From assembly GCA_014376355.1 (NCBI GenBank), contig JACMRQ010000272.1:1-35714 (forward strand): a DNA stretch of 35,714 nt, given 5' to 3'. Each line of letters begins with the position of its first letter. Positions within the stretch are counted from its first letter, which is position 1. Below are positions 9,138 through 25,132 of the stretch, piece after piece. The DNA is from Arcicella sp. (GTDB lineage Bacteria > Bacteroidota > Bacteroidia > Cytophagales > Spirosomataceae). Below the pieces are notes generated by a model. That model was not told where the DNA came from and did no database searches. It saw only the letters and a list, made by a program, of their open reading frames with translations. Both the position numbers and the translations under genes were made by a program.

Positions 9138-12100
9138 ATGAAAAACACAATTACTAATCACAGTTTCAAAATCTTTGTATGCCGTTGGGTCATAACACTG
9201 ATTTTGTTTATTCCAACGCTTGCTTTCGCACAGCAACAAATAAAGGGTAAAATTTCAGGTCAAGACGGCGTACCATTGAGTGGGGTAAGTGTTGCGGTAA
9301 AAGGTACAACCCGAGGCACAACAACCGATGCCGAAGGTAATTTTAAAATTGAAGTGGCCGCCAAAGCAATTTTATCCTTTAGCTTTATTGGTTATGTAAC
9401 GAAAGATGTTGCCATTGCAAGTGGACAAAGTGTAGTAAATGTAGCGATGAATGAAGATCAACAAAATTTAGACGAAGTTGTAGTGGTTGGATACGGAACT
9501 CAATTAAAAAAGGAGATTACTGGGGCTGTTCAAACGGTAAATTATAAAGAATTAAAGGATATTCCCGTCTCGCAAATTACGCAAAAACTACAAGGACAAT
9601 TAGCGGGTGTACAAATTAATCAAACAACTGGTAAACCTGGACAGGGTATGTCGGTTCGTATTCGTGGGCAGGTGTCGGTAACTGCAGGGAGTGACCCGCT
9701 TTATGTGATTGATGGCTTTCCAATTACGGGAAATATTGGAGCGATGAATCCTGATGAAATTGAAGACATTTCGATTTTGAAAGATGCTGCATCTACTTCT
9801 TTATATGGTTCAAGAGCAGCCAATGGCGTAGTTTTAATAACCACGAAGAAAGGAAAAGCAGGCACAAATGTTAGTTTTAGTACTTTCACTGGTTTGCAAG
9901 AAGTTCCAAAAAGGGGAAGAGTTGAAATGATGTCAGCGGTTGAATTCGCACAATTTAAAAAAGAATATTATGAAGATGCTAAACAACCCGTTCCAGTAGA
10001 ATTCCAAAATCCATCACAATATGAAGGAAAAAATAATGACTGGTACGATGCTCTATTAAGAGTTGCTCCCTTACAAAGTTATAATTTAAGCATTACTTCA
10101 AACCGAGAAAAAGCCCGAACCAGTGTTGTTGCAGGGGTTTTTAATCAGAAAGGAGTTGTGATAAATAATGATTATAAAAGATATTCTCTTCGGATAAATT
10201 CTGAATTTGATATTTCGGATAAAGTAAAAATGGGCTTCAATTTAGCACCACAATATGTTTTTGATAATACACCAAGAACCGATGGTGACAGAGGAACGGG
10301 TATTTTATTCAACGCTCTACACACTTGGCCAGTGATGCCAATCCGTGATGCAAATGGAGAATTAACTTTATTTAATAAATTCCCAGCCAGTACCGGAAAT
10401 ATTTTTGCGTATGCTAACTGGGTACGTGCTGCTGGAGAATTAATTAATGAAACAACTACGACGAATCTTATTTCAAATGCGTATATTCAATATAGACCTA
10501 TTAAAGGTTTAGTTTTGAAATCCACTTTTAATGTGGAGGTTTTACGATCAAAATTTTTCTATTTTAATCCTTCAACTGCCACAAGTGCCATCAATGTTCC
10601 TGTTCCAACCACTGCAGTTTCAATTCGTGAAAACACAGAGAATCTCACTTGGTTAAATGAAAACTTGGCAACTTATTCCAAAAGTTTTAACAATAATCAC
10701 AATTTTGAACTTTTAGCGGGTTTTACCAATCAAAAATTTCGTCAAGAATCCACTCGTACACAAGCAGATACCTACGCAGACGATAGACTTCCTACGATTC
10801 AAGGAGCAATTAACATAAACCGTGCTGGAACTTTCAACGGCGTTCAAGAATGGAGTTTGACTTCTTTCCTCTCAAGATTAACGTATAATTACAAAGGGAA
10901 ATATTTATTTACCGCTGCTATTAGAAGTGACGGTTCATCTCGATTTGGTTCGGATAATCGTTGGGGTACATTTCCTTCTGCATCAGTTGGTTGGGTGATT
11001 TCGGACGAGCCATTTATTCAAAAATTTCCCGAAATATCTTTTGCTAAACTTAGAGCAAGTTTCGGGGTTATTGGGAATAATAATATTGGTAATTATACTT
11101 CTTATGCTTTAATTAACAATACTGTAAATGCCGTTTTCGGAAATACAGTTTCTGCGGGTGCCGTTGTTACTTCCTTGGCAAACAAAAATTTAGGATGGGA
11201 AACAACCCGCCAATTTGATCTTGGCCTTGACCTTGGTTTATTCAATAACAGAGTTCAATTTATATATGATTTTTATACCAAAAATACAACCAACTTGTTG
11301 TACAGTGTTCAAGTTCCACAAGAATCTGGTTTTGGAAATTTTAACGATAATATTGGGGAAATTAAATTTTGGGGACACGAATTTTCATTGGTTACAAAAA
11401 ATACCGTTGGAAAAATAAACTGGACTACTAATTTCAATATTTCATTTAATAGAAACATAGTTGTTGCCTTAGCAGATGGAATTGACCGTGTTTATGGTTC
11501 ATTTCACATCACTAAAGTTGGTTATCCTTTCGGACAATTTTATGGTCATGTAGCTCAAGGAGTTTATTTGAATGCCGAAGACTTGAAAAATTCACCCCAA
11601 GTTCCTGGGCGTTCAACGGTTGGAAGTATCAAATTGACTGACCAAAATGGCGATGGAATTATAACGAACGGAGGCGATAATGATGACCGAGTAATAATTG
11701 GAAGTCCTTTCCCAAAATTCACTTACGGAATCACTAATAATTTTCGCTACGGAAATTTTGATTTAAGTATCATTGGTTCTGGTTCTTATGGTAATCAATT
11801 GTTGGTAAGACATTTATACAGTACTGCAAATTTAGATGGTGTATTCAATATGGTAAAAGAAGTACAATATCGCTTTCGTTCCCCTGAAAATCCAGGCAAA
11901 GGTTTTTATGGTACAACCGTCGGTGGAGGAAACGTAACGGGTATTGAACGTGACTGGATGAACAGTAGATTTATTGCTGATGCTTCATTTTTTACCATCA
12001 AAAACATAACGTTAGGTTATACGATTGGAGCGGTAAATAAAGCATTCAAATCGGCTCGTCTTTATACTTCAATCCAAAATGCGTTTATTTTTACGCAATA

Positions 12101-12236
12101 TTGGGGTGGACCAAATCCTGAAACGAGTGCTAATGGTGCGGGAAATGGCGATGGCGGAAACCTAAGTCAGGGTGTGGACTTATCAAATTATCCCGTTCCA
12201 CGTACCTATACACTTGGAATAAATCTAAATTTCTAA
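9138..12236 (+). CDS. SusC/RagA-type TonB-dependent outer-membrane transporter
   Basis: This 1032-residue protein is a SusC-like TonB-dependent channel that imports oligosaccharides or other large nutrients across the outer membrane with its SusD partner. The signal peptide (about residues 1-31, ending AFA before QQQ) is followed by a carboxypeptidase-D regulatory-like domain (about 35-105). Next comes DEVVVVGYGTQ, the conserved start of the plug domain, then plug motifs such as VRIRG and DPLYVIDGFP, and the long beta-barrel ending in aromatic Phe (INLNF). I chose ATG at 9138 because the longer reading from 9099 adds thirteen residues in front of a normal signal peptide. It has no N-terminal anti-sigma-interacting STN domain. 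The SusD gene starts 19 nt after its stop. Confidence 0.95.
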   Translation: MKNTITNHSFKIFVCRWVITLILFIPTLAFAQQQIKGKISGQDGVPLSGVSVAVKGTTRGTTTDAEGNFKIEVAAKAILSFSFIGYVTKDVAIASGQSVVNVAMNEDQQNLDEVVVVGYGTQLKKEITGAVQTVNYKELKDIPVSQITQKLQGQLAGVQINQTTGKPGQGMSVRIRGQVSVTAGSDPLYVIDGFPITGNIGAMNPDEIEDISILKDAASTSLYGSRAANGVVLITTKKGKAGTNVSFSTFTGLQEVPKRGRVEMMSAVEFAQFKKEYYEDAKQPVPVEFQNPSQYEGKNNDWYDALLRVAPLQSYNLSITSNREKARTSVVAGVFNQKGVVINNDYKRYSLRINSEFDISDKVKMGFNLAPQYVFDNTPRTDGDRGTGILFNALHTWPVMPIRDANGELTLFNKFPASTGNIFAYANWVRAAGELINETTTTNLISNAYIQYRPIKGLVLKSTFNVEVLRSKFFYFNPSTATSAINVPVPTTAVSIRENTENLTWLNENLATYSKSFNNNHNFELLAGFTNQKFRQESTRTQADTYADDRLPTIQGAININRAGTFNGVQEWSLTSFLSRLTYNYKGKYLFTAAIRSDGSSRFGSDNRWGTFPSASVGWVISDEPFIQKFPEISFAKLRASFGVIGNNNIGNYTSYALINNTVNAVFGNTVSAGAVVTSLANKNLGWETTRQFDLGLDLGLFNNRVQFIYDFYTKNTTNLLYSVQVPQESGFGNFNDNIGEIKFWGHEFSLVTKNTVGKINWTTNFNISFNRNIVVALADGIDRVYGSFHITKVGYPFGQFYGHVAQGVYLNAEDLKNSPQVPGRSTVGSIKLTDQNGDGIITNGGDNDDRVIIGSPFPKFTYGITNNFRYGNFDLSIIGSGSYGNQLLVRHLYSTANLDGVFNMVKEVQYRFRSPENPGKGFYGTTVGGGNVTGIERDWMNSRFIADASFFTIKNITLGYTIGAVNKAFKSARLYTSIQNAFIFTQYWGGPNPETSANGAGNGDGGNLSQGVDLSNYPVPRTYTLGINLNF

Positions 12237-12255
12237 TTATTAAACTTTTGAACAC

Positions 12256-13764
12256 ATGAAAAAGATACTAATTATATCAATAATATTGGGATTTACCCAA
12301 ACGAGTTGCAAGGAGAATTTTTTGACCATTGTTCCCGAAACGGCCCTAAGTTCAGCAACTTTTTTCAATAAAGAAGCCGATTTCCAACAAGCGGTCAATG
12401 CCGCTTATGTTCCCTTACGAAGCATCGTGAATGATAGGGCATATTTATTAGGAGAAATGCACTCCGACAATACTTATTATTACAGAAATATCCTTTTTGG
12501 AGACACTGAACAGCAAGAGGATATTGCAGATTTTGCCGTTCCAACTGCCAACGGAGTTACTTCTAATACGCACGTTTTAAATAATTATCGTTTAGATTAT
12601 CAAATTATTGCCAGAGCAAATCAAATATTATCACAAATTGATAAGGTTGAATTTAATGCAGATTCAAAGAACAATTTGAAAGGGCAAGCCATGTTGTTAA
12701 GAGCTTATGCCTACCTTGAACTGGTTCAATATTTTGGCAAAGTGCCTTTACATTTGACTCCCGTAACGGTCAGACAAGATGCTGCATTGCCTTTATCAAC
12801 GGTTGATGAAGTTTATGCACAAATAATTAAGGATGCCACACAGGCCTCTACTTTTTTATTGCCAAAATCAAAGCAAGAAGCGGGTAGGGTAACTTCGGGT
12901 TCAGCTAAAACTTTATTAGCAAACGTTTACATCGTTCAGAAAAAATGGGCGGAGGCCGAAAAAGTTGCCAGAGATGTTGTCACAAGCGGAGAATACGGTT
13001 TAATGATTGGTTACGAAAATGCTTTTTCTACTAATACTGCCAATAAAAATAATCAAGAGTCAATTTTTGAAGTCCAGTTTTTGGAAGGTTCGGATGGTTT
13101 AAATGGTAGTATAATTTACAATTTTCTCCCAAGACCAATGAGTCCTGAAGAATTAAAACCGATCACTGGAACGTCAAACCCTCAGCCGCTCACGGGCGAA
13201 GGCAACAACGCCCCAACGCCTGATATTATCGCTGCTTATGAAACTGGAGATTTGAGAAAAGATGCCTCAATTGCTGTAGTAACATTAAGTGGAAGTTTAC
13301 GGGCAAATAAGGTTTTTCCATACATAAAAAAGTTTGCGAAGACTCATACTTTACATGGAAATACTGGTAACAATTGGCCTATTTATCGTTACTCAGAAGT
13401 TTTATTGTATTTAGCAGAAGCCTTAACGGAGCAGAATAAAGTTTCGGAAGCTGCACCATTTCTAAATCAAGTTCGTACAAGAGCTGGTCTCAAAGCCTCA
13501 AAAGCAGTTTCACAAACTGAAATGCGTAATGCAATTTATCAAGAAAGGCGAGTTGAACTGGCGTTTGAAAATAAACGGTGGTTTGATTTAATTAGAACAG
13601 GCAGAGCAATTGATGTAATAACAGCGTATGGAAATCGAATTAAGGCAAATCCTGTTGATTATTATTATCCAGAAGGGGCAATACCTCGAAGCAATGCTTT
13701 TACTAATATAAGTTTATTGTATGGTCTTCCAGCCGATGAGGCGGCATTGACTCCTTATTTCTAA
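12256..13764 (+). CDS. SusD/RagB-type nutrient-binding surface lipoprotein
   Basis: This 502-residue lipoprotein caps the SusC channel and binds its substrate at the cell surface. The signal peptide ends in QTSC with Cys18 as the lipid-attachment residue. The N-terminal SusD-like segment (ETALSSATFFNKEADFQQAVNAAY) and helical TPR-like region (LKGQAMLLRAYAYLELVQYFGKVP) are typical. So is the C-terminal block with YLAEALTE, LNQVRTRAGL and YQERRVELAFENKRWFDLIRTG. Translation probably continues from the SusC transcript (19-nt gap). A terminator-like hairpin follows at 13798-13837. The SusD family does not reveal the sugar. Confidence 0.95.
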   Translation: MKKILIISIILGFTQTSCKENFLTIVPETALSSATFFNKEADFQQAVNAAYVPLRSIVNDRAYLLGEMHSDNTYYYRNILFGDTEQQEDIADFAVPTANGVTSNTHVLNNYRLDYQIIARANQILSQIDKVEFNADSKNNLKGQAMLLRAYAYLELVQYFGKVPLHLTPVTVRQDAALPLSTVDEVYAQIIKDATQASTFLLPKSKQEAGRVTSGSAKTLLANVYIVQKKWAEAEKVARDVVTSGEYGLMIGYENAFSTNTANKNNQESIFEVQFLEGSDGLNGSIIYNFLPRPMSPEELKPITGTSNPQPLTGEGNNAPTPDIIAAYETGDLRKDASIAVVTLSGSLRANKVFPYIKKFAKTHTLHGNTGNNWPIYRYSEVLLYLAEALTEQNKVSEAAPFLNQVRTRAGLKASKAVSQTEMRNAIYQERRVELAFENKRWFDLIRTGRAIDVITAYGNRIKANPVDYYYPEGAIPRSNAFTNISLLYGLPADEAALTPYF

Positions 13765-13797
13765 TTCTTTTTTTTGATTAACATATAATATTACAAA

Positions 13798-13837
13798 TAC
13801 CGACCTGTAAGATTTTCAAAACCCTTACAGGTCGGTA
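13798..13837. terminator. Hairpin after susD-like gene
   Basis: Arms 13798-13811 and 13824-13837 form a perfect 14-bp stem with a 12-nt loop, 33 nt after the SusD stop. There is no T-run after it on the plus strand. It may be a partial terminator that lowers expression of downstream genes relative to SusCD, or a palindromic intergenic repeat. Confidence 0.6.
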
Positions 13838-13943
13838 CTGTAAAAGCAATAGAATTTATTATTTTTATCATATTAATAATGCATTAATTTTTTAGGTGTA
13901 AAATGCTATCAACAAAATTTATTTCGTACCAACCAAAAATATT

Positions 13944-16649
13944 ATGTTTACTAAAAGTCTAATTGTCAAACTCTTCTTTGTGGTAATTGCTTTGCTTGCA
14001 ATTGCTTCATTTATTTCTGTCAGAACTACTGAACCTTCTGTAACAGGAATTAAAGATCCTAAAGTTGAAAAGCTAAAACTTACGGATGGATTCAAAGCCG
14101 AACATCTTTATAGTCCCTCAGAAAATAATTATGGTTCTTGGGTTTCCATGACTTTTGATGATAAAGGTCGAATGATTGTTTCTGACCAATACGGTTCATT
14201 ATATCGTTTAAAAATTCCTGCTATTGGTGCTGAAAACCAAACTACTGCTATCGAAAAACTCGCTATCGGTAAAGCACCAAATGTTGATACTACGGGTATG
14301 GGTTATGCACACGGCTTACTATACGCCTTCAATAGTCTGTATGTAATGATTAATAACGGGAAAAATAACAAAGAATTTACTCGTAAAAGTGGCTTGTATC
14401 GGCTTCAAGATACTGATAATGACGATCAATTTGACAAACTTACCCTCATGAAAGAATTGGTGGGTGAAGGTGAACATGGGCCTCATAGTATTGTTTTATC
14501 GCCCGATAAAAAATCACTTTTTGTTATTTGTGGTAACCATACTGACGTTCCTCCTTTGGATGCTTACCGTTTACCATCTAATTGGCAAGAAGATAATTTA
14601 TTTCCATTAATAAAAGACCCTCGTGGACACGCTAACGATCGTTATGCTCCAGGTGGTTGGATTGCAAATCTTGACCCAGAAGGTAAAAAATGGGAATTAT
14701 TTAGTGCTGGATACAGAAATGCTTTCGATATGACTTTCAACGAAGTGGGAGATTTGTTTGTGTATGATGCTGATATGGAGTGGGATTTTGGTCTTCCTTG
14801 GTATCGCCCAACTCGGATTTGCCACGCAACAAGTGCCAGTGAATTTGGATGGAGAACAGGCAATAGTAAATGGTCGCCTACATTTCCTGATAATCTTCCT
14901 CCGGTTCTTAACATCGGACAAGGTTCACCAACAAATTTATTACATTTAAAAGATGCAAAATTTCCTGCAAAATATAAAAGTACCTTATTAGCTTTCGATT
15001 GGAGTTTTGGAATTATTCATGCCGTTCATTTAAAACCTTCTGGTTCAACCTATTCTGGTGAAAGAGAGGAATTTTTATCAGGACTTCCATTGCCACTAAC
15101 TGATGGGGTTATTGGACCAGATGGAGCTTTATATTTCTTAACGGGTGGGCGTAAATTAGAGTCAGATTTATACAGAGTTTCTTATATTGGTAATGAAAAT
15201 ACTGCCCAAGTTGCTGCTAAACCAATTAATTCAGCTAACGCTTTAAGAAGAAGTTTAGAACAATATCATACGGGCGGTCCAAATAAAGAGGCTGTCAAAA
15301 TTGCTTTTCCTTACCTTAAAAATCCAGATAGATTTATCAGATATGCCGCTCGATTGGCGATTGAACATCAGCCCGTAAGCGAATGGCAGGACTTAGCTTT
15401 GAACGAAAAAGATCCAATTGCTCAAACGCAAGCATTAGTTTCTTTGATTCGTCAGGGAAAAGGAGATAAGAAAAATGAGATTTTAAATGCTCTTTTAAAT
15501 ATTAACTTCAAGACATTAACGCAACCCCAACAATTGGATTTATTACGGGCATTTGAATTGGCTTTTCTACGGATGGGACAACCTGATGCAACGATGAAAC
15601 CAAAAATTATTGCTTACTTAGACCCTTTATATCCAGCCAATACTGCCCACTTGAATCGTTCATTAAGTAAAGTTTTAATTTATTTAGATGCACCTGACGC
15701 TGTGGCAAAAACCCTCAAATTGATGGATATAAAAACTGAGCCAGGAAGTAATGATTTGAATGTCGAAACTGCTACCGCATCAAGCGATTTAATTTTACGA
15801 AATCCTCAATATGGAGCAGACATTGCCGCTATGTTAGCCAATATTCCTCCCGCCCAACATACCTATTATGCAACGATGTTAAGTTTGGCAAAAGTTGGTT
15901 GGACTCCTGCCTTTCAAGATAAATATTTTAAGTGGTATTATGATGCTTTTGGGTATAAGGGTGGTAGAAGCTATGTTGGTTTTCTGGATAGAGCCAGAAA
16001 ATTAGCGTTAAAAAACGTTCCTGAAAGCAAAAGAGCCTATTTTGATAAATTATCGGGAGCAGAGAGATTAAGTAAAAATGGTAATGATTTAATTTTAGCA
16101 ACTGCCCCGAAAGGACCTGGCGGATATTGGAAATTGGAAACGGCTCTTCCACTCGTTGAAAATGGGTTAGCCAATCGAAATTTTGAGCAAGGAAAAGCCA
16201 TGTTTTCTGCTACGACTTGCAAAATGTGCCATGCTATGCGTGGAGAAGGCGGAGCAATTGGTCCAGATTTGACGCAATTAGGCACTCGCTTTTCTTCAAA
16301 AGATATGTTAGAAGCCATTATTCATCCTGATAAAACGGTTTCTGATCAATACGCTGCAACGCAATATAGTCTTAAAAATGGCAGTTCAGTTGTTGGACGT
16401 TTGATTAATGAAGATAAAAATTATTACTACGTTTCTCAGAATCCTTACTCACCCGAAGTATTGGAAAAAGTGTTGAAGAAGAATGTAGTTTCGGCTAAAT
16501 ATTCATCCGTATCCATCATGTTTGGTGGGCTAATTAACAGTTTAAATGCCGATGAAATGAAAGATTTGATGGCCTATTTAATGTCAGGAGGAAATGACAA
16601 AAACCCAATGTTCTCGGCCAAAACCGAGGTTAAAAAAGATGGGAAGTAA
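13944..16649 (+). CDS. PVC-type haem-binding protein: beta-propeller dehydrogenase-like domain with C-terminal cytochrome c
   Basis: This 901-residue exported protein starts with a signal or anchor helix (about residues 7-26). Residues about 45-420 look like the membrane-bound dehydrogenase/sorbosone-dehydrogenase-type beta-propeller (GEHGPHSIVLSPDKKSLFV, GPDGALYFLTGG). Residues about 430-700 look like HEAT-type helical repeats. Residues about 740-890 are a PVC-type cytochrome c domain with CKMCH (Cys759, Cys762, His763), GPDLTQLGTRFSSKDMLEAIIHPDKTVSDQY and a late Met for the second ligand. The protein probably oxidises a sugar or alcohol in the periplasm and passes electrons to the respiratory chain; the cofactor of the propeller (PQQ or other) cannot be confirmed. 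It lies between SusD and the DUF1080 gene, which links it to sugar breakdown. Confidence 0.85.
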   Translation: MFTKSLIVKLFFVVIALLAIASFISVRTTEPSVTGIKDPKVEKLKLTDGFKAEHLYSPSENNYGSWVSMTFDDKGRMIVSDQYGSLYRLKIPAIGAENQTTAIEKLAIGKAPNVDTTGMGYAHGLLYAFNSLYVMINNGKNNKEFTRKSGLYRLQDTDNDDQFDKLTLMKELVGEGEHGPHSIVLSPDKKSLFVICGNHTDVPPLDAYRLPSNWQEDNLFPLIKDPRGHANDRYAPGGWIANLDPEGKKWELFSAGYRNAFDMTFNEVGDLFVYDADMEWDFGLPWYRPTRICHATSASEFGWRTGNSKWSPTFPDNLPPVLNIGQGSPTNLLHLKDAKFPAKYKSTLLAFDWSFGIIHAVHLKPSGSTYSGEREEFLSGLPLPLTDGVIGPDGALYFLTGGRKLESDLYRVSYIGNENTAQVAAKPINSANALRRSLEQYHTGGPNKEAVKIAFPYLKNPDRFIRYAARLAIEHQPVSEWQDLALNEKDPIAQTQALVSLIRQGKGDKKNEILNALLNINFKTLTQPQQLDLLRAFELAFLRMGQPDATMKPKIIAYLDPLYPANTAHLNRSLSKVLIYLDAPDAVAKTLKLMDIKTEPGSNDLNVETATASSDLILRNPQYGADIAAMLANIPPAQHTYYATMLSLAKVGWTPAFQDKYFKWYYDAFGYKGGRSYVGFLDRARKLALKNVPESKRAYFDKLSGAERLSKNGNDLILATAPKGPGGYWKLETALPLVENGLANRNFEQGKAMFSATTCKMCHAMRGEGGAIGPDLTQLGTRFSSKDMLEAIIHPDKTVSDQYAATQYSLKNGSSVVGRLINEDKNYYYVSQNPYSPEVLEKVLKKNVVSAKYSSVSIMFGGLINSLNADEMKDLMAYLMSGGNDKNPMFSAKTEVKKDGK

Positions 16650-17728: not shown

Positions 17729-17729
17729 A

Positions 17730-18581
17730 ATGAATAAAATAGGATTTAATGTACTGGCTTGGTCGGCTGGGGTTTCAGAAGATTTATTTCCAATCGTTGA
17801 AAGGTTAAAGTTAATTGGATATGATGGCGTAGAATATTTTGTTGGTTCTCCCAACGAATTGGAGTACAAAAATTTAGGACAACACTCTAAAGATGTTGGG
17901 TTGGAAGTTACCGCTGTAACAGTTGTTAGCCCAGAAGCAAACCCAATCAGTGATTCCGTAAATGTCAGAGCTAAAGGTCTCGAACGCCTCAAATGGTCAA
18001 TTGACCGTGCTTTTGATTTAGATTCTCGAATTCTTTGTGGACCTTTTCATTCGGCTCATGCTCATTTTTTTGCTCGTCCTGCATTAGAAGATGAATATAA
18101 ATGGGGTTCAGAAATTCTGCATCAAGCGGGAGAATACGCCAAACAAGCCAATGTAACCTTAGCATTAGAAGCCCTAAATCGTTTTGAATGTTATCTCTGC
18201 AATACGATGGAACAATTAGCAAAATTTGTTAAAATGGCAAATCATCCAAATGTGCAAGCCATGTTTGATACGCACCACGCTAATATTGAGGAGAAAAAAT
18301 ATCTGCATGCTATCCAAACAATTTCACCTTTTTTAAGCCACGTACATATTAGCGAGAACGATAGAGGAACGCCTGGTGATGGTCATGTTCCGTTTGATGA
18401 TGCTTTTTCAGCATTGGCAGATGTCCATTATAAAGGATGGCTTACGATTGAGGCTTTTTCAAGAAATGACCCTGATTTTGCTAATGCTATAAATGTTTGG
18501 CGTGAATATAATGACCCTTGGCATATTGCTGAAAATGGATTAAAATTCATCAAAGAAATGGGTCAAAAACATGGATTGTAA
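17730..18581 (+). CDS. TIM-barrel sugar epimerase, D-tagatose 3-epimerase-like
   Basis: This 283-residue protein has the xylose-isomerase-like TIM-barrel fold. The probable metal ligands are Glu147 (LALEALNR), Asp180 (MFDTHH), His206 (HVHIS) and Glu241 (LTIEAF). Their spacings (33, 26, 35) are identical to those I recall for Pseudomonas cichorii D-tagatose 3-epimerase (Glu152, Asp185, His211, Glu246), and the GTPGDGHVPF segment is also typical of the group. It should isomerise or epimerise a free ketose at C3, or act on a 3-keto-sugar intermediate. It starts one base after the DUF1080 stop; the next TIM-barrel gene begins 45 nt downstream. Annotation pipelines would call it sugar phosphate isomerase/epimerase, but phosphate binding is not evident. 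Confidence 0.85.
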   Translation: MNKIGFNVLAWSAGVSEDLFPIVERLKLIGYDGVEYFVGSPNELEYKNLGQHSKDVGLEVTAVTVVSPEANPISDSVNVRAKGLERLKWSIDRAFDLDSRILCGPFHSAHAHFFARPALEDEYKWGSEILHQAGEYAKQANVTLALEALNRFECYLCNTMEQLAKFVKMANHPNVQAMFDTHHANIEEKKYLHAIQTISPFLSHVHISENDRGTPGDGHVPFDDAFSALADVHYKGWLTIEAFSRNDPDFANAINVWREYNDPWHIAENGLKFIKEMGQKHGL

Positions 18582-18626
18582 ATTCATTAGAAAATCTACC
18601 TTCAAAATTTTAAAAAATAGATTAAA

Positions 18627-19454
18627 ATGGAAAATAAATTGCCATTTCGATTTGGTTCGGAAGTTTATACATGGTTTATGAGTGGAAATGGACAAACCCA
18701 TCAAGGGCGATTGGCTCACATGATAGAAATTATAGCCAAAGCAGGTTTTACAGGAATTCAACCTATTTTCACCTGGATGGGAGATTTAGTTGAGGCTGAT
18801 CGTTTAGAAGCTAAATTAAAAGAACAAGGCATAGAATTAGCGGCACTTGCATTGGCTTTGGAATGGAATGGTGCCGAAGAATCTGAGAACGAAAAATTAA
18901 TTGCTGATAATGCAATGGCACTGTTGCAACGTTTTCCTGGGGCAGTATTAAATACAGTTCAAATTCCAACGGGTCGTCATGATTTGGAAAAGCGTCAACG
19001 AAATTTGGTAAATATTGTCAATACAATTTCAAAAAGAGCCGCCGAAAATGGTATTCCTTGTAGTTTTCATCCCAATTCTCCTCATAGTTCAATCATAAGA
19101 ACTGAGTCAGATTATCGAGTCGTTTTAGAATCGTTGGACAGTTCGGTAACTGGCTGGACACCAGATGTTGGTCATATTATTAATGGTGACATGAATCCAC
19201 TCGAAAAAATGAAAGAATACGCATCTCTGATAAATCATGTTCATTTTAAAGATTGGAACGGTGAACCAGAATTTGCTTTGATGGGCAAAGGGAAAGTTGA
19301 CTTATTATCAATCACTCAGTGGCTCAAAGACATTAATTATGGTGGTTGGATTATCTGTGAAGATGAAGGTGTAGAGGCTGTGGATGACCCTGATTTTGTG
19401 ACGCTTCACGACGGTAAGTGGATATTAAATGATTTAATTCCTAACCTAAAATAG
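18627..19454 (+). CDS. TIM-barrel protein resembling inosose dehydratase (IolE-like)
   Basis: This 275-residue protein also has the xylose-isomerase-like fold but a different metal site. The fourth-strand position that is Glu in epimerases here reads CSFHPNSPHS (His148). It is followed by TPDVGHI (Asp180, His183), HVHFKDW (His206) and IICEDEG (Glu245). The FHPN...DVGH...HVHFKD pattern recalls IolE, the 2-keto-myo-inositol dehydratase, more than a sugar epimerase. A dehydratase or beta-eliminase acting on a keto-sugar would fit the neighbours. This is inference from motif resemblance. The alpha/beta hydrolase follows directly (TTG immediately after the stop, ATG nine nucleotides after it). Confidence 0.75.
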   Translation: MENKLPFRFGSEVYTWFMSGNGQTHQGRLAHMIEIIAKAGFTGIQPIFTWMGDLVEADRLEAKLKEQGIELAALALALEWNGAEESENEKLIADNAMALLQRFPGAVLNTVQIPTGRHDLEKRQRNLVNIVNTISKRAAENGIPCSFHPNSPHSSIIRTESDYRVVLESLDSSVTGWTPDVGHIINGDMNPLEKMKEYASLINHVHFKDWNGEPEFALMGKGKVDLLSITQWLKDINYGGWIICEDEGVEAVDDPDFVTLHDGKWILNDLIPNLK

Positions 19455-19463
19455 TTGAATTAT

Positions 19464-20273
19464 ATGCCCTTTTTACAAACAAACGGAATTAATTTTTATT
19501 ACGAAGAGCGTGGTTCAGATTCTGGCACTCCCATTTTAATGATTATGGGAATTACCGCCACAGGTGCTGTTTGGGAACCTCATACTGCCCATTTTGAGAA
19601 AAATTTTAGATGTATCATCGGTGATAATCGAGGTGTTGGTTTAACGGATAAACCCCATGAAGATTATACAACCGCCATGATGGCTGATGATTATGCGAGT
19701 TTACTCGATAAACTTCAAATCGAAAATGCCCACGTTATTGGCTGCTCAATGGGAAGTACAATTGCACAACAATTAGCAATTAGGCATCCTCAAAAAGTAA
19801 AATCCTTAGTTTTAATGTGTCCGTGGGCTCGTTGTGATAATGCCGCAAAAGCCATTTTTCAACATATTGTCAATTGCAAAGCAAAGTTTAATCCCGAAGA
19901 ATTTGCGCTTTACATTCAGTTATTAATATATTCAAAAGCGTTGTGGGATGATGCAAAATTTGTAGCCGAACTGGAAGAAGGTCGAAAAAATGCTCATTTA
20001 GACCCAAATCCACAACCACTACATGGACTGAAAGGTCAAGCAGCGGCGTGTATCAATCATTCAGCACTTACAGAATTAAGTGAGGTTTTGCAACCAACTT
20101 TTGTAATTGGAGGTAAAGAAGATATTTTTACACCCGTTTGGATGGCTGAGGAAATTGTAGCAACGATGCCAAATGCAGAATTATTCCTTTATGAAAAAGC
20201 TGGTCATGCCTTCCATTTTGAGAATCTTGAAGATTTTAATAATCGAGTAACTGATTGGATTCTAAGCCATTAA
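19464..20273 (+). CDS. Alpha/beta hydrolase
   Basis: This 269-residue cytoplasmic alpha/beta hydrolase has the nucleophile elbow GCSMGS (Ser95), an acid in GGKEDIFTP (Asp220) and a base in GHAFHFE (His248), giving a complete Ser-Asp-His triad. MIMGITATGAVWEP forms the usual oxyanion loop, and DNRGVGLTDKP is typical of the 3-oxoadipate enol-lactonase/haloperoxidase-like group. It could open a sugar lactone or remove an acyl ester from a substrate. I chose ATG at 19464 because the reading frame's earlier start, at 19455, is a TTG immediately following the upstream stop. It lies inside the sugar operon, 36 nt before the DUF4432 gene. Confidence 0.8.
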   Translation: MPFLQTNGINFYYEERGSDSGTPILMIMGITATGAVWEPHTAHFEKNFRCIIGDNRGVGLTDKPHEDYTTAMMADDYASLLDKLQIENAHVIGCSMGSTIAQQLAIRHPQKVKSLVLMCPWARCDNAAKAIFQHIVNCKAKFNPEEFALYIQLLIYSKALWDDAKFVAELEEGRKNAHLDPNPQPLHGLKGQAAACINHSALTELSEVLQPTFVIGGKEDIFTPVWMAEEIVATMPNAELFLYEKAGHAFHFENLEDFNNRVTDWILSH

Positions 20274-20309
20274 AAATAGTTTTTATAAAATTTTACGAAT
20301 TATTTTTCG

Positions 20310-21332
20310 ATGATAGAAATTCAAGATTATAAAGATAAAATCTCAAACGCTTCCCAATTAGGCGGTATTGAAACCTCCATTTTAGATAACGGTTCTGGGC
20401 GTGGCGTTAGAATTGCTTGGATAAATACGGGTACAGGTTTACGTTATAAAGTGTTGATTGATAGGGCAATGGATATTTCTGATGCCTTTTATAATCAGCA
20501 CAGTTTGGCTTGGTTAAGTCACGGAGGAATAACGCCCCCTCAACCTTTTTCTGATAAAGGAATTGATTGGTTAAGAACTTTTAACGGAGGACTTTTAACA
20601 ACTTGTGGGCTTACACACGTGGGTGGACCTGAATCGGATGAATTCGGTGAAAGAGGAATTCACGGGCATTTTTCTAATATTCCTGCCGAAATAGAATCTA
20701 TCATTCAGCCCGACCCTCAGATGGGTAAAATGGAAATGAGTATCATAGGAATTATTCGAGAAACAAGAATTTTTGGTCCAAGTTTAGCTTTGCGAAGAAC
20801 CATTTCAAGTACATTGGGTGAGGCGAATATCCGAATTCATGATGAGGTAATTAATTACGGAAATACTCCCGCACCGCTGATGATACTTTATCATTTCAAT
20901 TTTGGGTATCCATTGGTTGATGAAGGGACAGAAATACTTTGGGAAGGCACTTGGAAACCCCGTTTCGGAGAAGAAAACGCAAAGATTTTCAAGGCGGAAA
21001 ATAATTTCAAAAAATGCCCTTCTCCCATTGAAGACCATCTTGGTTCGGGTGAAGAAGTTGTATTAATTGACCCAATTTCGGATAATAATGGAATGTGTAA
21101 TTGCGGTCTTTATAATCCAAAAATTGGCTTAAAAGTTGAATTAATTTTTCAGAAAAACCAATTGCCAACGTTGACAAATTGGCAACATTGGGGTAAAAAT
21201 GAATATGTAACGGGTTTAGAGCCAGCCACTAATTATCCAATTGGGCAAGCAAAAGCAAGAGAAAATAAGGAACTTATTTTATTAGAACCTTTTGAAAGTC
21301 GTTCCTTTAATTTAGAATTGAAGGTTTCTTGA
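20310..21332 (+). CDS. DUF4432 family, aldose-1-epimerase-like protein
   Basis: This 340-residue protein has the beta-sandwich character of the galactose mutarotase superfamily and matches the DUF4432 group by its pattern. Examples are RGVRIAWINTGTGLRYKVLIDRAMDI, FNGGLLTTCGLTHVGGP, GIHGHFSNIPAE and MILYHFNFGYPLVDEG. His and Glu residues in these blocks and in TGLEPATNYP are candidates for catalysis. It could interconvert sugar anomers, or process an intermediate of the locus; no function is experimentally implied by the sequence alone. No signal peptide is visible, so it is probably cytoplasmic. Confidence 0.8.
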   Translation: MIEIQDYKDKISNASQLGGIETSILDNGSGRGVRIAWINTGTGLRYKVLIDRAMDISDAFYNQHSLAWLSHGGITPPQPFSDKGIDWLRTFNGGLLTTCGLTHVGGPESDEFGERGIHGHFSNIPAEIESIIQPDPQMGKMEMSIIGIIRETRIFGPSLALRRTISSTLGEANIRIHDEVINYGNTPAPLMILYHFNFGYPLVDEGTEILWEGTWKPRFGEENAKIFKAENNFKKCPSPIEDHLGSGEEVVLIDPISDNNGMCNCGLYNPKIGLKVELIFQKNQLPTLTNWQHWGKNEYVTGLEPATNYPIGQAKARENKELILLEPFESRSFNLELKVS

Positions 21333-21428
21333 AAGAATGAACATTATTTTGGTATTACTATGATTTATTTAAAGTTTTTAAAACCGCAGTTTCGTATAAG
21401 TTAAAAAATATTAAACCAAATATAAACG

Positions 21429-22643
21429 ATGTCAAATTTAAGTATAGCTCAAAAAGCCTTAGAACAGGGAGAAGGTATTTTTCGATTAGTCCCCACTTGG
21501 GTTCCACGCTCTTTTTGCGTACCTGGGCGAAGAATAAAACTTCACCCAGATGATTATTATGTATTGGGAGGTATTCGAGGGGGTATTGATGAGCGTTGGT
21601 TATCTTCAACTACACCTGCTAAAAATGGACCTCTTACGGGTGAAAATGAAGGACTAAGTTTTATCATTTTTAATGACGGAAGCACCGAGCAAAAGGTACT
21701 TTTGAAAGATGCCATTGATGAACTTAAGGGCGAAATTATCGGAAATAGGCTTTGGGATGAGTATAAAAGTTGGGCAATGTATTCCAAATTTTTTGATAAT
21801 ATGGGACCCTTACCTCACCATATTCACCACAATGACGAACACGCCGCAAAAATTGGACAACTCGGCAAACCAGAGGCCTATTATTTCCCTCCACAATTAA
21901 ATAATCACGGAGGGGATTTTCCTTATACTTTCTTCGGAATTGCCCCAGGAACAACCAAAGAGCAAATAAAAGAATGCTTAATGAATTTCACCAAAGGTGA
22001 TAATAAACTGACGAATTATTCGCAAGCCTTTCGCTTAGAACCCGGCACGGGTTGGGATGTACCTCCTGGAATGTTGCACGCTCCTGGGAGTATGTGTACG
22101 TATGAACCACAAAAAGCCTCCGATGTATTTGCGATGTATCAATCGTTGGTAAATGAAGCGATTATTCCCGAAGAATTATTGTGGAATGGCACTCCAGCCG
22201 ATAGAATCGGGGATTATGACCAATTAATGGAAGTTATAGATTGGGAGTTAAACACCAACCCAAATATTTTAGAAACTCGTTTTATGGCTCCAAAACCTGT
22301 AAAATCTGTGGCTGAAATGGAAGCAGAAGGGTACATTGAAAACTGGATTTGTTATCGTTCAGAAGCGTTTTCTGCTAAAGAGTTAACGATTGCTCCTGGC
22401 AAAACAGTAACTATAAAAGATAGTGCGGCTTATGGAATTATCATGATGCAGGGACACGGAAAAATGGGTGTTTGGAATATTGAAACGCCTTCGCTAATTA
22501 GGTACGGACAATTAACAAATGATGAATTTTTTATTACCGAAAAAGCGGCAACAGAAGGAGTGAAAATTACAAATCATTCAACTACTGACCCGATTGTAAT
22601 GCTTAAACATTTTGGACCAAATAATCCTGATTTGGTTGTGTAA
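21429..22643 (+). CDS. Cupin-type, phosphomannose isomerase-like protein
   Basis: This 404-residue protein resembles class I mannose-6-phosphate isomerase and related cupins. The first cupin has PLPHHIHHNDEH (His131/His133 region), then Glu149 in KPEAYYF and His217 in PPGMLHAPG, which fit the His-x-His, Glu, His zinc site. A second, degenerate cupin occupies the C-terminal third (about 310-395). A ketose/aldose isomerase role in the pathway is likely; whether the substrate is phosphorylated is unclear. It is preceded by a 96-nt spacer and followed by a structured intercistronic region. Confidence 0.75.
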   Translation: MSNLSIAQKALEQGEGIFRLVPTWVPRSFCVPGRRIKLHPDDYYVLGGIRGGIDERWLSSTTPAKNGPLTGENEGLSFIIFNDGSTEQKVLLKDAIDELKGEIIGNRLWDEYKSWAMYSKFFDNMGPLPHHIHHNDEHAAKIGQLGKPEAYYFPPQLNNHGGDFPYTFFGIAPGTTKEQIKECLMNFTKGDNKLTNYSQAFRLEPGTGWDVPPGMLHAPGSMCTYEPQKASDVFAMYQSLVNEAIIPEELLWNGTPADRIGDYDQLMEVIDWELNTNPNILETRFMAPKPVKSVAEMEAEGYIENWICYRSEAFSAKELTIAPGKTVTIKDSAAYGIIMMQGHGKMGVWNIETPSLIRYGQLTNDEFFITEKAATEGVKITNHSTTDPIVMLKHFGPNNPDLVV

Positions 22644-22705
22644 TAAATTGTGGTAGAACCCGTAATAATTCTTGGTTCTCCTACAGTTTTTGTGGAATGG
22701 CGATG

Positions 22706-22764
22706 TAGGGACGAATAGCATTCTACGATGTCATTGGAGAGAGGAAGAATGCTATTCGTCCCTA
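22706..22764. repeat. Perfect 19-bp inverted repeat in the intercistronic region
   Basis: Arms 22706-22724 and 22746-22764 are exact reverse complements around a 21-nt loop. It lies between the cupin gene and the third TIM-barrel gene, within a long operon. It may be an RNA hairpin for transcript processing or stability, a partial terminator, or a palindromic repeat copy. No T-run follows. Confidence 0.8.
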
Positions 22765-22815
22765 TTACAAAAAATATCAGACAACCTAATTCTTAAACAA
22801 AACCTTCATTTAATC

Positions 22816-23850
22816 ATGCAAGAAAATAATTATCCGAAGCTTCATAATGCCACTTGGCCAGGAATTGTTGGTAAAGGTCCTGATTCTGAGCCTCCTATCT
22901 CATTGGATACCATGCTCGAAATGACGGCTGCCGCTGAGGTGGATGGCGTTAAATTTGATGGCGTTGATATTGGACTTTTCGACCCACATTATGACCTTAA
23001 TATTTCCGATGATTCGATTAAAAAATTGGCGGATAAAGTAGCAAAACATAATCTGCAAATTGGAAGTTTAGTTGCACCCATCTGGGGAGGTCCAGCGATG
23101 GGAAGTAAAGAAGAACGAACGCAATTTGTGGAAATGGTTCGTAAATCTTGTCAGATTGGTCAAAAATTGCGTGAAATGGGCATTCGTCCCCACGGAGTCG
23201 TTCGAATTGACTCCGCAAGTAGTCCCCAAAATTGGGCAAATGACCCGATTAATAACACAAAATTAATTGCACAAACTTTCCAAGAGGCCTGTGATGTTGC
23301 GGCAGATTACGGCGAAAAATTGGCAGCCGAAGGAGAAATTTGTTGGGGAGGAATGCACAGTTGGAGAACTATGCTTGATACTTTAGAAGCAGTAAATCGT
23401 CCTAATATTGGTTTTCAAGCGGATATGTCCCATACTTTTCTGTATTTATTGGGCTATAATGCCCCCGAAGACCGAATCCTTCCCGTGAATTTTCAATGGG
23501 ATGATAGAGAGGCGTTGAATGCTGGGTTGAAAAAATTGACAAATGCCTTACGTCCTTGGACAATAGATTTTCATGTGGCACAAAATGATGGAACTGCTCA
23601 CGGAACGGGTTCACATGATAAAACAGGAAGACATTGTTTAGCAACTGATCCCAACGGAAAGTTAGACATCGTTCATGATGCAGGTTTTTGGCTTAGACAT
23701 GAAGATGGAGAATTAACAAAAGCCTTCAAACATATTTGTTGGGATGGATGTATGTTCGACAATGAGGTAATGACTCAACCCAAAACGTGGAATGATATTC
23801 TGGCAACGATGATAAAAGTTCGTAAACAACATGGTTGGTATGAGGCATAA
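22816..23850 (+). CDS. TIM-barrel protein of the sugar isomerase/epimerase fold
   Basis: This 344-residue protein is the third xylose-isomerase-fold TIM barrel of the locus. Candidate metal ligands are Glu172 ([10 protein letters not shown]), Asp203 and His206 (QADMSHTF) and His253 (DFHVAQ). SHDKTGRHC and [10 protein letters not shown] are other conserved-looking segments. I start it at ATG 22816: the longer open frame from 22672 would translate through the intercistronic hairpin, and those 48 residues do not look like part of the fold. It lies 21 nt ahead of the Gfo/Idh/MocA gene, a pairing that suggests successive steps on one keto-sugar. Precise reaction unknown. Confidence 0.75.
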
Positions 23851-23871
23851 ACCTATAATTTTTAATGAGAA

Positions 23872-25050
23872 ATGATACAGAAAAAACAAGTAAGAATTGG
23901 ATTAATTGGAACGGGTTTAATGGGAAGAACCCACTCCAATGGCTATAATCGGGTAGCCAATTTCTTTCCTGATTTAGCTTTCACTCCCGTTCTGAAAGCG
24001 GTTTGCTCTCGAAATAAAGATAAAGTACAAGCATTCGCAGACCAATGGGGTTATGAATCCGTTGAAACCGATTGGAAAAAATTAATTGACAGAGATGATA
24101 TTGATGCCATTGATATTTGTACGCCCAATGACAGTCATGCTGAAATTTCTTTGGCGGCGGCGGCGGCAGGGAAAATGATTTTGTGTGAAAAACCACTTTC
24201 TCGAAATTTAGCCGAAGGAGAAAAAATGGTAGAAGCCATTGAGAAAGCAGGGGAGGGGGGTGTTCCTCTAAAAACAACTGTTTGGTATAATTATCGAAGA
24301 TTACCCGCAGTATCCTTAGCAAAACAAATTATTGACTCGGGGAAATTGGGAAAAATTTATCATTATCGAGCTAACTTTTTACAAGATTGGACAATCAGTG
24401 CTGATTTGCCTCAAGGTGGAGAAGGTCTTTGGAGAATGGATATTGAAGCGGCTGGTTCTGGCGTTACTGGCGACCTTTTGGCCCATTGTATTGATACGGC
24501 CATGTGGTTAAATGGAGCAATTAAGGATGTTTCAGCCGTTACGGAAACGTTTGTAAAGGAACGAATGCACCAATTAACGGGTAAAGTTCAACCCGTTGGA
24601 ATTGACGATGCTTGCATTTTTCACTGCCATTTTGAAAATGGTTCTCTGGGGCTTTTTGAATCTACTCGTTATGCTCGTGGACATAAAGCACTTTATACTT
24701 TTGAAATAAATGGTGCGGACGCTTCCATTCGTTGGGATTTGCATGATTTGAATCGCCTTGAATATTTCGACCATCGGGATGAATCAATCGTGAGAGGATG
24801 GCGGTCAATTCACGTAACAGATAGTGACCAACCGTACATGGATAAATGGTGGGTTCCTGGGTTAGGAATTGGATACGAGCATAGTTTTGTTCATCAAGTA
24901 GCAGATTTTTTAAAAAGTTTGGAGACTGGTGAAACGTGTTCTCCCACTTTTAAGGAAGCATTACAAACCCAAAAAGTTTGCGAGGCAGTGATTGATTCCG
25001 CCAATTCGAGGAGTTGGAAGGATACTCATGTAGATGGAAAATATGTGTAA
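23872..25050 (+). CDS. Gfo/Idh/MocA family NAD(P)-dependent oxidoreductase
   Basis: This 392-residue cytoplasmic dehydrogenase oxidises or reduces a hydroxyl/keto group of a sugar or inositol. The N-terminal Rossmann domain has GLIGTGLMG (GxGxxG at Gly13, Gly15, Gly18) and CEKPLSR with the catalytic-site lysine (Lys107). The C-terminal domain carries [14 protein letters not shown], with Asp201, His205 and Asp208 in the typical catalytic-site positions. The length is normal for the family. In known routes such enzymes make the 3-keto-glycoside or reduce the keto product. It is the last gene of the sugar locus, followed by a strong terminator. A run of alanine codons at residues 95-99 is the only odd local composition. 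Confidence 0.9.
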
Positions 25051-25125: not shown

Positions 25126-25132
25126 TCTAATC

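Follow-up and report, generated by a model that had tools for sequence, protein, structure and literature searches.

We analysed a 35,714-nucleotide stretch of DNA from Arcicella sp. (the window), in which 11 genes lie on the forward strand at positions 9099-25050, running SusC, SusD, cytochrome c protein, DUF1080, TIM1, TIM2, ABH, DUF4432, CUPIN, TIM3 and GFO:

9099..12236, + strand: SusC/RagA-type TonB-dependent outer-membrane receptor (TIGR04056, 829 bits, cut-off 368); uptake module, optional in relatives
12256..13764, + strand: SusD-like lipoprotein (PF07980, 112 bits; PF14322, 100 bits)
13944..16649, + strand: secreted propeller-like and mono-haem cytochrome c protein, candidate periplasmic sugar dehydrogenase (TIGR02603, TIGR02604)
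16952..17728, + strand: DUF1080 lipoprotein (Pfam 3-keto-disaccharide hydrolase; PF06439, 126 bits)
17730..18581, + strand: TIM1, xylose-isomerase-like barrel (PF01261), nearest D-psicose/D-tagatose 3-epimerases
18627..19454, + strand: TIM2, xylose-isomerase-like barrel (PF01261, 81 bits), nearest NCBIfam model IolE
19455..20273, + strand: ABH, alpha/beta hydrolase (PF00561, 120 bits), nearest enol-lactonase PcaD/RutD models
20310..21332, + strand: DUF4432, aldose-1-epimerase-like (PF14486, 334 bits; relative 3ty1); core gene in Bacteroidota
21429..22643, + strand: CUPIN, phosphomannose-isomerase-fold protein by predicted structure; core gene
22816..23850, + strand: TIM3, 344-aa xylose-isomerase-like barrel (PF01261; model pLDDT 86); core gene
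23872..25050, + strand: GFO, Gfo/Idh/MocA oxidoreductase (PF01408, PF22725); core gene
25083..25126, no strand: candidate bidirectional terminator closing the operon, a 21-nt perfect stem (loop of 2 nt) where the GFO and VPS10-like genes converge

All genes described in an earlier note on this DNA are present, on the + strand and in the order given there; its start of the locus, 9138, moves to 9099, where the SusC frame opens, 9138 being the next ATG. The TIM3 start is likeliest at 22816, rather than at the mechanically called TTG at 22672, because the frames of TIM3 relatives align from there. The stem at 25083..25126 was absent from the matches of a terminator scan. By TIGR04056 and PF07980/PF14322, the adjacent SusC and SusD genes qualify as a SusCD-type uptake locus. 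As the earlier note had also concluded, the 11 locus proteins give no model of a classical glycoside hydrolase, polysaccharide lyase or sulfatase in Pfam besides DUF1080. Export signals, read by eye, are present on SusC, SusD, the cytochrome protein and DUF1080 and absent from the other seven proteins; thus, the compartments fit a single route.

The cytochrome protein scores 92.3 bits against TIGR02603 (cut-off 68.15) and 67.5 bits against the N-terminal domain TIGR02604, below its cut-off of 122.2. Its N-terminal part is propeller-like and a CxxCH motif lies at residues 759-763; this motif and GEHGPHS are invariant. Searches with 15 orthologues at an E limit of 1 gave weak matches to DUF7133 (10/15, best E 0.0002) and GSDH (2/15, best E 0.007). 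With this weak link to glucose/sorbosone dehydrogenases, the protein is a candidate periplasmic sugar dehydrogenase; that it acts at C3 is a guess. DUF1080 matches PF06439 over its full length (positions 1-187 of 187, cut-off 26.8 bits) and has a lipobox-like STGC, read by eye. Judged by its family, it would cleave 3-keto-glycosides.

Relatives were sampled as 80 named and 55 further loci (135 in total), with flanks of about 10 kb round the cupin; 58 named loci extend at least about 9 kb to either side. Accompanying genes were counted at an identity of at least 40% on the cupin's strand. In these 58 full-flank loci, TIM3 and GFO each lie beside the cupin in 56, DUF4432 in 53, DUF1080 in 46 and the cytochrome protein in 38; SusC does so in just 19 and TIM2/ABH in 13. 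Over all 80 named loci, 22 have SusC on the same strand as the cupin, a count from 10-kb flanks that can miss it, and TIM2 and ABH are always paired (both in 16/16 named loci having either). L083 and L173 have the genes in another order but still side by side, and in L085 TIM3, GFO, DUF4432 and the cupin stay together, reordered. In G088, a genome of the same genus, TIM2/ABH are missing, as is SusCD immediately upstream. The locus is not one fixed system: to a stable core (cytochrome protein, DUF1080, DUF4432, cupin, TIM3, GFO) are added exchangeable modules for uptake (SusC/SusD) and accessory steps (TIM1; TIM2 with ABH). The earlier description of a complete import and breakdown system is not supported, since SusC/SusD, TIM1, TIM2 and ABH are optional and no inner-membrane importer is found among the 11 genes.

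The core is conserved together in Bacteroidota, Balneolota, Planctomycetota and Kiritimatiellota, so conservation of the genes apart from one another, which the earlier note had counted against its own reading, is not what we see for the core. The group is no chance neighbourhood, because other genera and phyla carry it but not the flanking genes: among the 80 named and 55 further loci, the window's flanking genes occur at full length in one same-genus genome only (G088: L057, L058). These controls are uneven, in that the VPS10-like, deacetylase-like and RPE genes fall within reach of a 10-kb flank, whereas the MFS and aminotransferase genes lie at least 13 kb upstream of the cupin and PMT lies at the edge, so that not seeing them in the named loci is less telling. 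The cupin is present in 107/150 genomes of the family Spirosomataceae, Aquirufa among the carriers, with complete copies at least 77% identical; at 50% identity or more it occurs in 10/296 genomes drawn from the phylum Bacteroidota (own genome counted). Five same-genus genomes are listed without a cupin match, and the protein is therefore dispensable.

CUPIN has zero Pfam or NCBIfam family matches. The structure predicted for it, in a model of moderate quality (pLDDT 69), shows the fold of type I phosphomannose isomerase (PMI), which bears out the earlier label of a PMI-like cupin: the best 14 Foldseek matches listed are all PMI, and VIA gives Z 16.8-18.6 for the 16 PMI entries listed (rmsd 3.0-4.3, 254-281 residues, 13-15% identity), the next fold scoring 10.2. 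An hhalign comparison with ManA is weak (probability 17%). Residues H131, H133, K147, E149 and H217 are invariant in sets of 8 and of 30 sequences. In a motif comparison, H131, H133, E149 and H217 fall at ManA Q97, H99, E134 and H255 (ManA numbering), which we take to be the metal ligands, and K147 at K132; the PMI metal-ligand positions are kept in CUPIN, the Q97 position being His. The motif-aligned position of ManA Arg274 is Met236, with Arg there in 0/8 aligned sequences. From the PMI fold, the kept metal-ligand positions and Met at the Arg274 position, we infer that CUPIN is a candidate isomerase of an unphosphorylated sugar. Only 2/135 loci (L171 and L172), both non-Bacteroidota, have a PfkB kinase next to the cupin.

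Relatives add further genes to the core. A gene for a ribose-type ABC importer, whose models are nearest ribose/xylose, lies directly 3' of GFO in 15/70 named and 24/45 further loci (GFO at least 60% identical), and an RbsB-like protein adjoins even a cupin of 49-50% identity (L086). No ribose-type ABC permease was found in the window's genome or in two genus-mates; both control genomes searched alongside gave one. Some relatives add GH130, GH88, GH106 or sulfatases: GH130 lies upstream of DUF1080 in 5/80 named loci, all Dyadobacter, and is absent from two further Dyadobacter loci (L120, L124) and every other named locus; GH88 adjoins the core in Lacihabitans and a GH106 rhamnosidase does so in Emticicia. 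Such unlike glycoside hydrolases beside one core suggest that it handles a sugar that different glycans can yield.

On balance, we lean towards a sugar-catabolism operon with periplasmic oxidation and DUF1080 cleavage, followed by cytoplasmic reduction and isomerisation. A small glycoside or oligosaccharide would cross the outer membrane via SusC/SusD, and the propeller/cytochrome c protein would oxidise a hydroxyl, probably at C3, in the periplasm, passing electrons to the respiratory chain. The DUF1080 lipoprotein would cut the resulting 3-keto-glycoside, and the keto-sugar would enter the cytoplasm, through the ribose-type ABC importer in many relatives and some other importer here. There GFO may reduce the keto group with NAD(P)H, and TIM3, with TIM1/TIM2 where present, may epimerise, dehydrate or hydrate keto intermediates. 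DUF4432 would then interconvert anomers, the PMI-fold cupin would convert free aldose to ketose, and a PfkB-type kinase, like that adjoining the cupin in the two non-Bacteroidota loci, would phosphorylate the ketose. A mannose- or glucose-configured sugar is our first guess for the substrate. Keto-sugar chemistry, as the earlier note proposed, is the best class-level reading of DUF1080, a levoglucosan dehydrogenase (LGDH)-like Gfo/Idh/MocA protein and xylose-isomerase-fold barrels. Its "unusual glycoside" fares less well, given the scores of GFO against the LGDH and BT2158/BT2159-type models (below) and the unlike glycoside hydrolases beside the core.

Those scores bear on an unlikely alternative modelled on levoglucosan breakdown, in which the periplasmic proteins do no more than prepare the substrate. 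The sugar or anhydrosugar would reach the cytoplasm intact, to be oxidised at C3 by GFO with NAD+; elimination and hydration by TIM barrels would follow, and then reduction of the product by GFO or a different enzyme. The nearest curated model of GFO is levoglucosan dehydrogenase (NF052479), and GFO is 37% identical to a protein passing that rule, but it scores 316 bits against a cut-off of 650 (749 bits for a positive control, the plasmid protein of L180) and forms its own clade beside levoglucosan dehydrogenase (support 99/100, tree of 16). It keeps the CEKP and DxxxH motifs. Against the BT2158/BT2159-type glycoside 3-dehydrogenases it reaches 28.4 bits (NF058561, cut-off 750) and 27.8 bits (NF058563, cut-off 650). 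The Lgd pathway, as outlined in PMC7676230 and PMC10066097, comprises LGDH, barrels of ~275 and ~325 aa and an ABC importer. Compared with the LgdB1-context barrel next to the control LGDH, TIM2 aligns at 27% over 129 aa only and TIM1 at 22% over 231 aa; TIM3 gives no match to the 352-aa barrel there, and a PMI-like isomerase has no place in that route. The 11 proteins include no second Gfo/Idh/MocA (LgdC), a weak criterion because LgdC lies nearby in only about half of LgdA genomes, according to PMC10066097. The three Planctomycetota/Kiritimatiellota loci that have the core trio and at least 9 kb to either side (L171, L172 and L174) favour the cytoplasm-first scheme: they lack DUF4432, the cytochrome protein and, at 40% identity, DUF1080, for which there is one 26% match. 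The cytoplasmic part could thus be independent of keto-sugar release in the periplasm.

It is less probable again that the route is one for mannosides, with mannose as the sugar handled and the cupin as a free mannose-fructose isomerase. The PMI fold with its metal-ligand positions and Met at the Arg274 position would suit it, as would the Dyadobacter GH130 (Pfam name: mannooligosaccharide phosphorylase), but that gene is missing in L120, L124 and all other named loci, other copies of the core adjoin GH88 or GH106, and the importer models are nearest ribose/xylose, not mannose.

Slightly behind comes catabolism of inositol or another cyclitol, in which GFO would act as an inositol-type dehydrogenase, TIM2/TIM1 would be IolE/IolO-like and PfkB would be IolC-like. 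The matches are far below the cut-offs: IolG 114 bits for GFO (355), IolE 60 for TIM2 (290), IolO 140 for TIM1 (300) and, for the L172 PfkB kinase, 74 to its best hit, the IolC N-domain (300). An ebo cluster with a DHQ-synthase-type gene lies downstream in 3/80 named loci, but the window proteins scanned include no IolB, IolD or IolJ-like protein, and DUF1080, SusCD and a PMI-fold isomerase would not be expected. Least probable is that the genes are co-regulated neighbours serving several sugars rather than one pathway. The variable presence of SusCD, TIM1 and TIM2 with ABH, which extends to the genus itself (G088), would suit this reading, but the core stays together through reordering and across phyla.

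ABH falls below the cut-offs of its nearest models, with 118 bits against TIGR02427 (cut-off 256), and TIM1 has a more distant match to 3-keto-D-glucoside 4-epimerase (6wn6). A profile search with TIM3 gave no significant PDB sequence, and its fold match is unspecific: IolE, xylose isomerase, ketose 3-epimerases and AtHYD, a 2-hydroxy-3-keto-glucal hydratase, all reach VIA Z 23-25, and IolI is tied as well. TIM3 is possibly a hydratase or epimerase of a keto-sugar. If true, the proposal accounts for a gene cluster that 107 of the 150 sampled genomes of the family keep, assigns a function to the cupin and TIM3, which are the two best-conserved core proteins lacking one at family level, and adds a second kind of periplasmic dehydrogenase to keto-sugar catabolism. 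DUF4432, the TIGR02604-like cytochrome proteins and an unnamed family with the PMI fold would also gain testable functions, and loci would still have to be counted as sugar-use loci even where classical glycoside hydrolases are missing.

Among known systems, the LacABC and DUF1080 route of Caulobacter and others likewise has glycoside oxidation and a DUF1080 hydrolase in the periplasm, a transporter, epimerases and a sugar reductase; fitness data presented in PMC9007349 mark the periplasmic sugar 3-dehydrogenase, DUF1080 protein, transporter, two epimerases and reductase as important for lactose use. In contrast, our locus has no GMC oxidoreductase, a propeller-like cytochrome c protein standing in its place, and adds SusCD, the PMI-fold cupin and DUF4432; the LacC-type PF13618 (gluconate 2-dehydrogenase subunit 3) is not found on the locus contig (C18), the four matches in the genome being on C427, C109, C46 and C448. 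The levoglucosan pathway LgdA-LgdB1-LgdB2/B3-LgdC, as described in PMC7676230 and PMC10066097, shares the wider Gfo/Idh/MocA group, several xylose-isomerase-like barrels and, in relatives, the ABC importer, whereas the locus has one dehydrogenase, different barrels, an added periplasmic part and the cupin. Agrobacterium AtHYD (PDB 8ro4) is like TIM3 in length and fold (VIA Z 24.0, rmsd 3.4, 278 residues, 14% identity), but the other barrels fit equally. Type I phosphomannose isomerase shares its fold and metal-ligand positions with the cupin, without a family-level sequence match and with Met236 at the Arg274 position. The Bacteroides BT2156-BT2160-type 3-keto-glycoside pathway reportedly combines DUF1080 and TIM-barrel proteins with Gfo/Idh/MocA dehydrogenases, all of which the locus shares, but GFO reaches only ~28 bits where the cut-offs are 750 and 650 (BT_2158_fam, BT_2159_fam). 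Tentatively, and with more doubt than for the operon as such, we suggest that a widespread, undescribed pathway exists in Bacteroidota and related phyla. Glycoside oxidation in the periplasm would there fall to a propeller-type cytochrome c dehydrogenase instead of the flavin LacABC enzyme, and the PMI-fold cupin would isomerise the free sugar (keto- or plain) together with a dedicated Gfo/Idh/MocA protein and a new xylose-isomerase-like barrel.

All eleven genes listed in the earlier note are present on a single strand at 9099-25050. Pfam and NCBIfam support SusC, SusD, a cytochrome c protein, DUF1080 (Pfam name: 3-keto-disaccharide hydrolase), three PF01261 proteins (TIM1, TIM2 and TIM3), an alpha/beta hydrolase (ABH), DUF4432 and a Gfo/Idh/MocA oxidoreductase (GFO); the cupin, with zero matches in either collection, was recognized by fold. 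As had also been claimed, the window locus has no classical glycoside hydrolase, lyase or sulfatase: none of the 11 proteins matched such a Pfam model. We assigned the TIM3 start to 22816 because the reading frames of relatives show that start. A perfect 21-nt stem (25083-25126), where GFO and the VPS10-like gene converge, is probably the operon end. Promoter scans of the window gave six matches to a Bacteroidetes-type pattern versus 3.6 expected, with no match in the gap before SusC, and sigma-70-type and terminator scans did no better than shuffles. The CUPIN-TIM3 gap holds an inverted pair of GGGACGAATAGCATTC (22706-22764), which has 19 exact copies genome-wide versus 0 for the pattern read backwards; five of the 19 copies are pairs in inverted order, 37-44 nt apart, and the pair is a REP-like element. 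Upstream lies an MFS transporter and class I/II aminotransferase pair (6370-8790; MFS 6370-7650), which in the same-genus locus L057 is found beyond GFO on the other strand. Elsewhere in the same genome, contig C114 (12067-14514) is a second site with DUF1080 and TIGR02604-type matches no more than ca. 2 kb apart.

Because no family model covers the cupin, the protein itself served as bait for relatives. A scan of genomes with the cupin gave at least 586 relatives, of which the best 80 were fetched, so this 80-locus set favors close cupin relatives; its 10-kb flanks can cut off SusC. A second, 55-locus set was chosen by hand: 40 stretches, representing 39 of the 107 family genomes in which the cupin was matched, plus 15 phylum genomes out of the 18 that gave a match. 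In eight of the 55 the only cupin is a distant one, with different surroundings. A gene counted as present when it matched with at least 40% identity on the same strand as the cupin. Five non-Bacteroidota loci, including L167, L168, L169 and L170, end near the cupin, and gene absence there says little.

The locus is a real, strongly conserved, modular operon. Of 150 family genomes, 107 carry the cupin (98 among the 134 better ones), its complete copies being 77-100% identical; among the listed genomes of the genus other than the window's own, two have it and five do not. Across the phylum it was found in 18 of 296 genomes drawn, own counted: ten at 50% identity or more and eight as a distant relative (36-39%) in other surroundings. 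A distant relative (33-36%, blastp) in L088, L089 and L091-L094 belongs to a different, xylan-type locus; domain checks in L091 covered GH10, GH2 and an FGGY (xylulokinase-like) kinase, whereas a second cupin and an ABC importer were named by eye. Among the best 80 of at least 586 loci, TIM3 was present in 71, GFO in 71, DUF4432 in 70, DUF1080 in 55 and the cytochrome protein in 50, versus 23 for TIM1, 22 for SusC, 20 for SusD, 16 each for TIM2 and ABH and 16-17 for ABC importer genes. The 58 of these best 80 that have at least about 9 kb of flank on each side gave 56, 56, 53, 46 and 38 for the first five genes, and 18 (TIM1), 19 (SusC), 15 (SusD), 13 (TIM2), 13 (ABH) and 13-14 (ABC importer genes) for the others. 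The window's flank genes (MFS, aminotransferase, VPS10-like, deacetylase-like, ribulose-phosphate epimerase and PMT-like) were found in 0 of 80 loci at 40% identity, although the MFS and aminotransferase genes lie at too great an upstream distance for a fair control; in the 55-locus set the flank genes occur only in the genus-mate G088. The VPS10/BNR-like gene (25133-28375) was also rejected as a hidden glycosidase, given its opposite strand, its Sortilin-Vps10 match and its absence from the 80 loci at 40% identity.

Comparison of gene order supports the grouping: L083 and L173 are rearranged, yet the genes stay together. L085 keeps TIM3, GFO, DUF4432 and the cupin together, with weak DUF1080 and cytochrome matches (33-34%). 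Metagenome-assembled genomes labelled Sedimentisphaerales (L171), Kiritimatiellae (L172), Planctomycetota (L174) and Akkermansiaceae (L168) also hold the trio of cupin, TIM3 and GFO, in varying order. Long flanks are available for L171, L172 and L174, and these three lack DUF4432, the cytochrome protein and, at 40% identity, DUF1080.

Around the core (cytochrome protein, DUF1080, DUF4432, cupin, TIM3 and GFO), other genes come and go. Among the best 80 loci, TIM2 and ABH are both present in 16 of the 16 loci having either, and TIM1 is found in 15 of these and in eight more, in part alongside a ThuA-domain protein (domain checked in L033). Locus L058 of G088 has no SusC/SusD directly before the cytochrome gene and no TIM2/ABH, so module content varies even inside the genus. 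Among loci whose GFO is at least 60% identical, an ABC importer (ATP-binding protein, permease and binding protein), whose nearest models are ribose/xylose/arabinose ABC systems, begins directly 3' of GFO in 15 of 70 from the 80-locus set and 24 of 45 from the 55-locus set. The permease was not found in the window's genome (89% complete, 7% contaminated) or in genus-mates G088 and G105 (95% and 88% complete); the search found it in two of two control genomes, G102 and G004. In L057 of G088, a VPS10-like gene follows GFO as in the window. The MFS transporter upstream of the window's SusC (6370-7650) was considered as a possible substitute for this importer. A ca. 400-aa FG-GAP repeat protein accompanies the core in 14 of the best 80 loci, across phyla including planctomycetes and on the cupin's strand in all 14; examples, among others, are:

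L171, 7930-9084, core's strand, FG-GAP repeat protein
L174, 5575-6831, core's strand, FG-GAP repeat protein
L097, 14350-15522, core's strand, FG-GAP repeat protein

Also among the best 80 are a GDSL-DUF7133-cytochrome fusion or its parts (11 loci), DUF1549/DUF1553 proteins (8) and DUF1501 proteins (7); the domain names of these partners and of the FG-GAP protein rest on one or two members each. Five of seven Dyadobacter loci have GH130, one Lacihabitans locus has GH88 and one Emticicia locus GH106, and sulfatases occur in some relative loci (domain checked in L046). These lineage-specific hydrolases limit the no-glycoside-hydrolase claim to the window and the conserved core; it does not extend to all relatives. 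Three of the best 80 loci, from two families, carry an ebo cluster downstream of the core (compare excerpts of PMC5133447); UbiA, TatD and DHQ-synthase domains were checked in L110:

L110, 13791-20458, core's strand, EboA-F
L160, 15128-20746, core's strand, EboB-F
L162, 15321-21203, core's strand, EboA-F

The predicted structure of the cupin (pLDDT 69, pTM 0.73) resembles phosphomannose isomerase (PMI). All 14 of its best Foldseek rows are PMI, and VIA-align gave Z 16.8-18.6 to 16 type I PMI entries, followed by seed storage cupins at 10.2. The hhalign alignment with ManA, the E. coli PMI, was weak, so residues were matched by motif (HxH, KPE, HA, SD) and by fold. By motif, ManA Q97-x-H99, K132-P-E134 and H255 correspond to cupin H131-x-H133, K147-P-E149 and H217, and none of these cupin residues (H131, H133, K147, E149, H217) varies in either of two alignments, one of 8 sequences and one of 30. 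The position of ManA R274 is Met236, invariant in the 30-sequence alignment and, in the 8-sequence alignment, replaced in L086, though not by Arg. The compared ManA residues (Q97, H99, K132, E134, H255 and R274) bind metal or substrate, and PDB titles list K86, H99, K132, E134, H255, E264 and R274 as chosen for mutation. We infer that the cupin is a metal-dependent isomerase whose substrate lacks phosphate. PfkB-type kinases that are 70% identical to each other adjoin the cupin in L171 and L172, the only two of 135 loci to have one, consistent with a free ketose product.

TIM3 is a xylose-isomerase-like barrel (pLDDT 86) whose fold ties at Z 23-25 with ketose 3-epimerases, IolE, IolI, xylose isomerase and Agrobacterium 2-hydroxy-3-keto-glucal hydratase; a profile search of PDB sequences gave nothing significant. 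The PDB entries nearest to GFO are 4h3v (334 bits) and 6a3f (252 bits), the latter of which we take to be a levoglucosan dehydrogenase (LGDH). Excerpts of PMC10066097 name the 6A3 series as LGDH structures. GFO retains the CEKP and DxxxH motifs. It shares 37% identity with a plasmid-encoded protein that satisfies the LGDH rule at 749 bits, a rule that GFO itself fails (316 bits). A tree of 16 sequences groups GFO with eight orthologues from four phyla in a single clade (99/100), separate from the LGDH. The cytochrome protein has an export signal, recognized by eye, an invariant CxxCH and invariant N-terminal motifs, e.g. GEHGPHS. Weak matches link its orthologues to DUF7133 (10 of 15) and the glucose/sorbosone dehydrogenase family (2 of 15), families that suggest a propeller fold. 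Secretion, these motifs and the family matches make it a plausible candidate cytochrome-linked sugar dehydrogenase.

Keto-sugar chemistry as a class, as proposed earlier, is the best reading of the locus. The predicted compartments of the proteins suggest that substrate would enter through the outer membrane, be oxidized in the periplasm by the cytochrome protein and be cleaved by DUF1080; the keto-sugar would then be imported into the cytoplasm for reduction, epimerization and isomerization. The reverse order would place the oxidation, by GFO, in the cytoplasm, on the pattern of levoglucosan breakdown (excerpts of PMC7676230 and PMC10066097). The trio found without a periplasmic part speaks above all for this reverse order and the predicted compartments for the other; we consider the reverse order the less likely of the two. 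Membership in the levoglucosan pathway itself was rejected on the LGDH cut-off and the separate GFO clade; the pathway is kept as a working analogy. Inositol catabolism was dismissed, every Iol model falling far below its cut-off.

Two parts of the earlier note found no support. The system cannot be called complete, as SusC/SusD, TIM1 and TIM2 with ABH are optional and the ABC permease was not found in the genome; nor is an unusual glycoside indicated, as the LGDH rule is failed and dissimilar glycoside hydrolases adjoin the cores of some relatives. The open-access literature searched, covering the first part of larger result lists, yielded no paper describing this cluster. According to excerpts of PMC5673643, DUF1080 has been linked to xanthan use in a planctomycete. 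The closest well-characterized precedent for the proposed periplasm-first route is lactose utilization by Caulobacter. In excerpts of PMC9007349, that process requires a periplasmic 3-dehydrogenase, and fitness data mark a DUF1080 protein and a transporter, together with two epimerases and a reductase, as important. Unlike that system, the window's contig has no LacC-type gene, and the cytochrome protein would fill that role.
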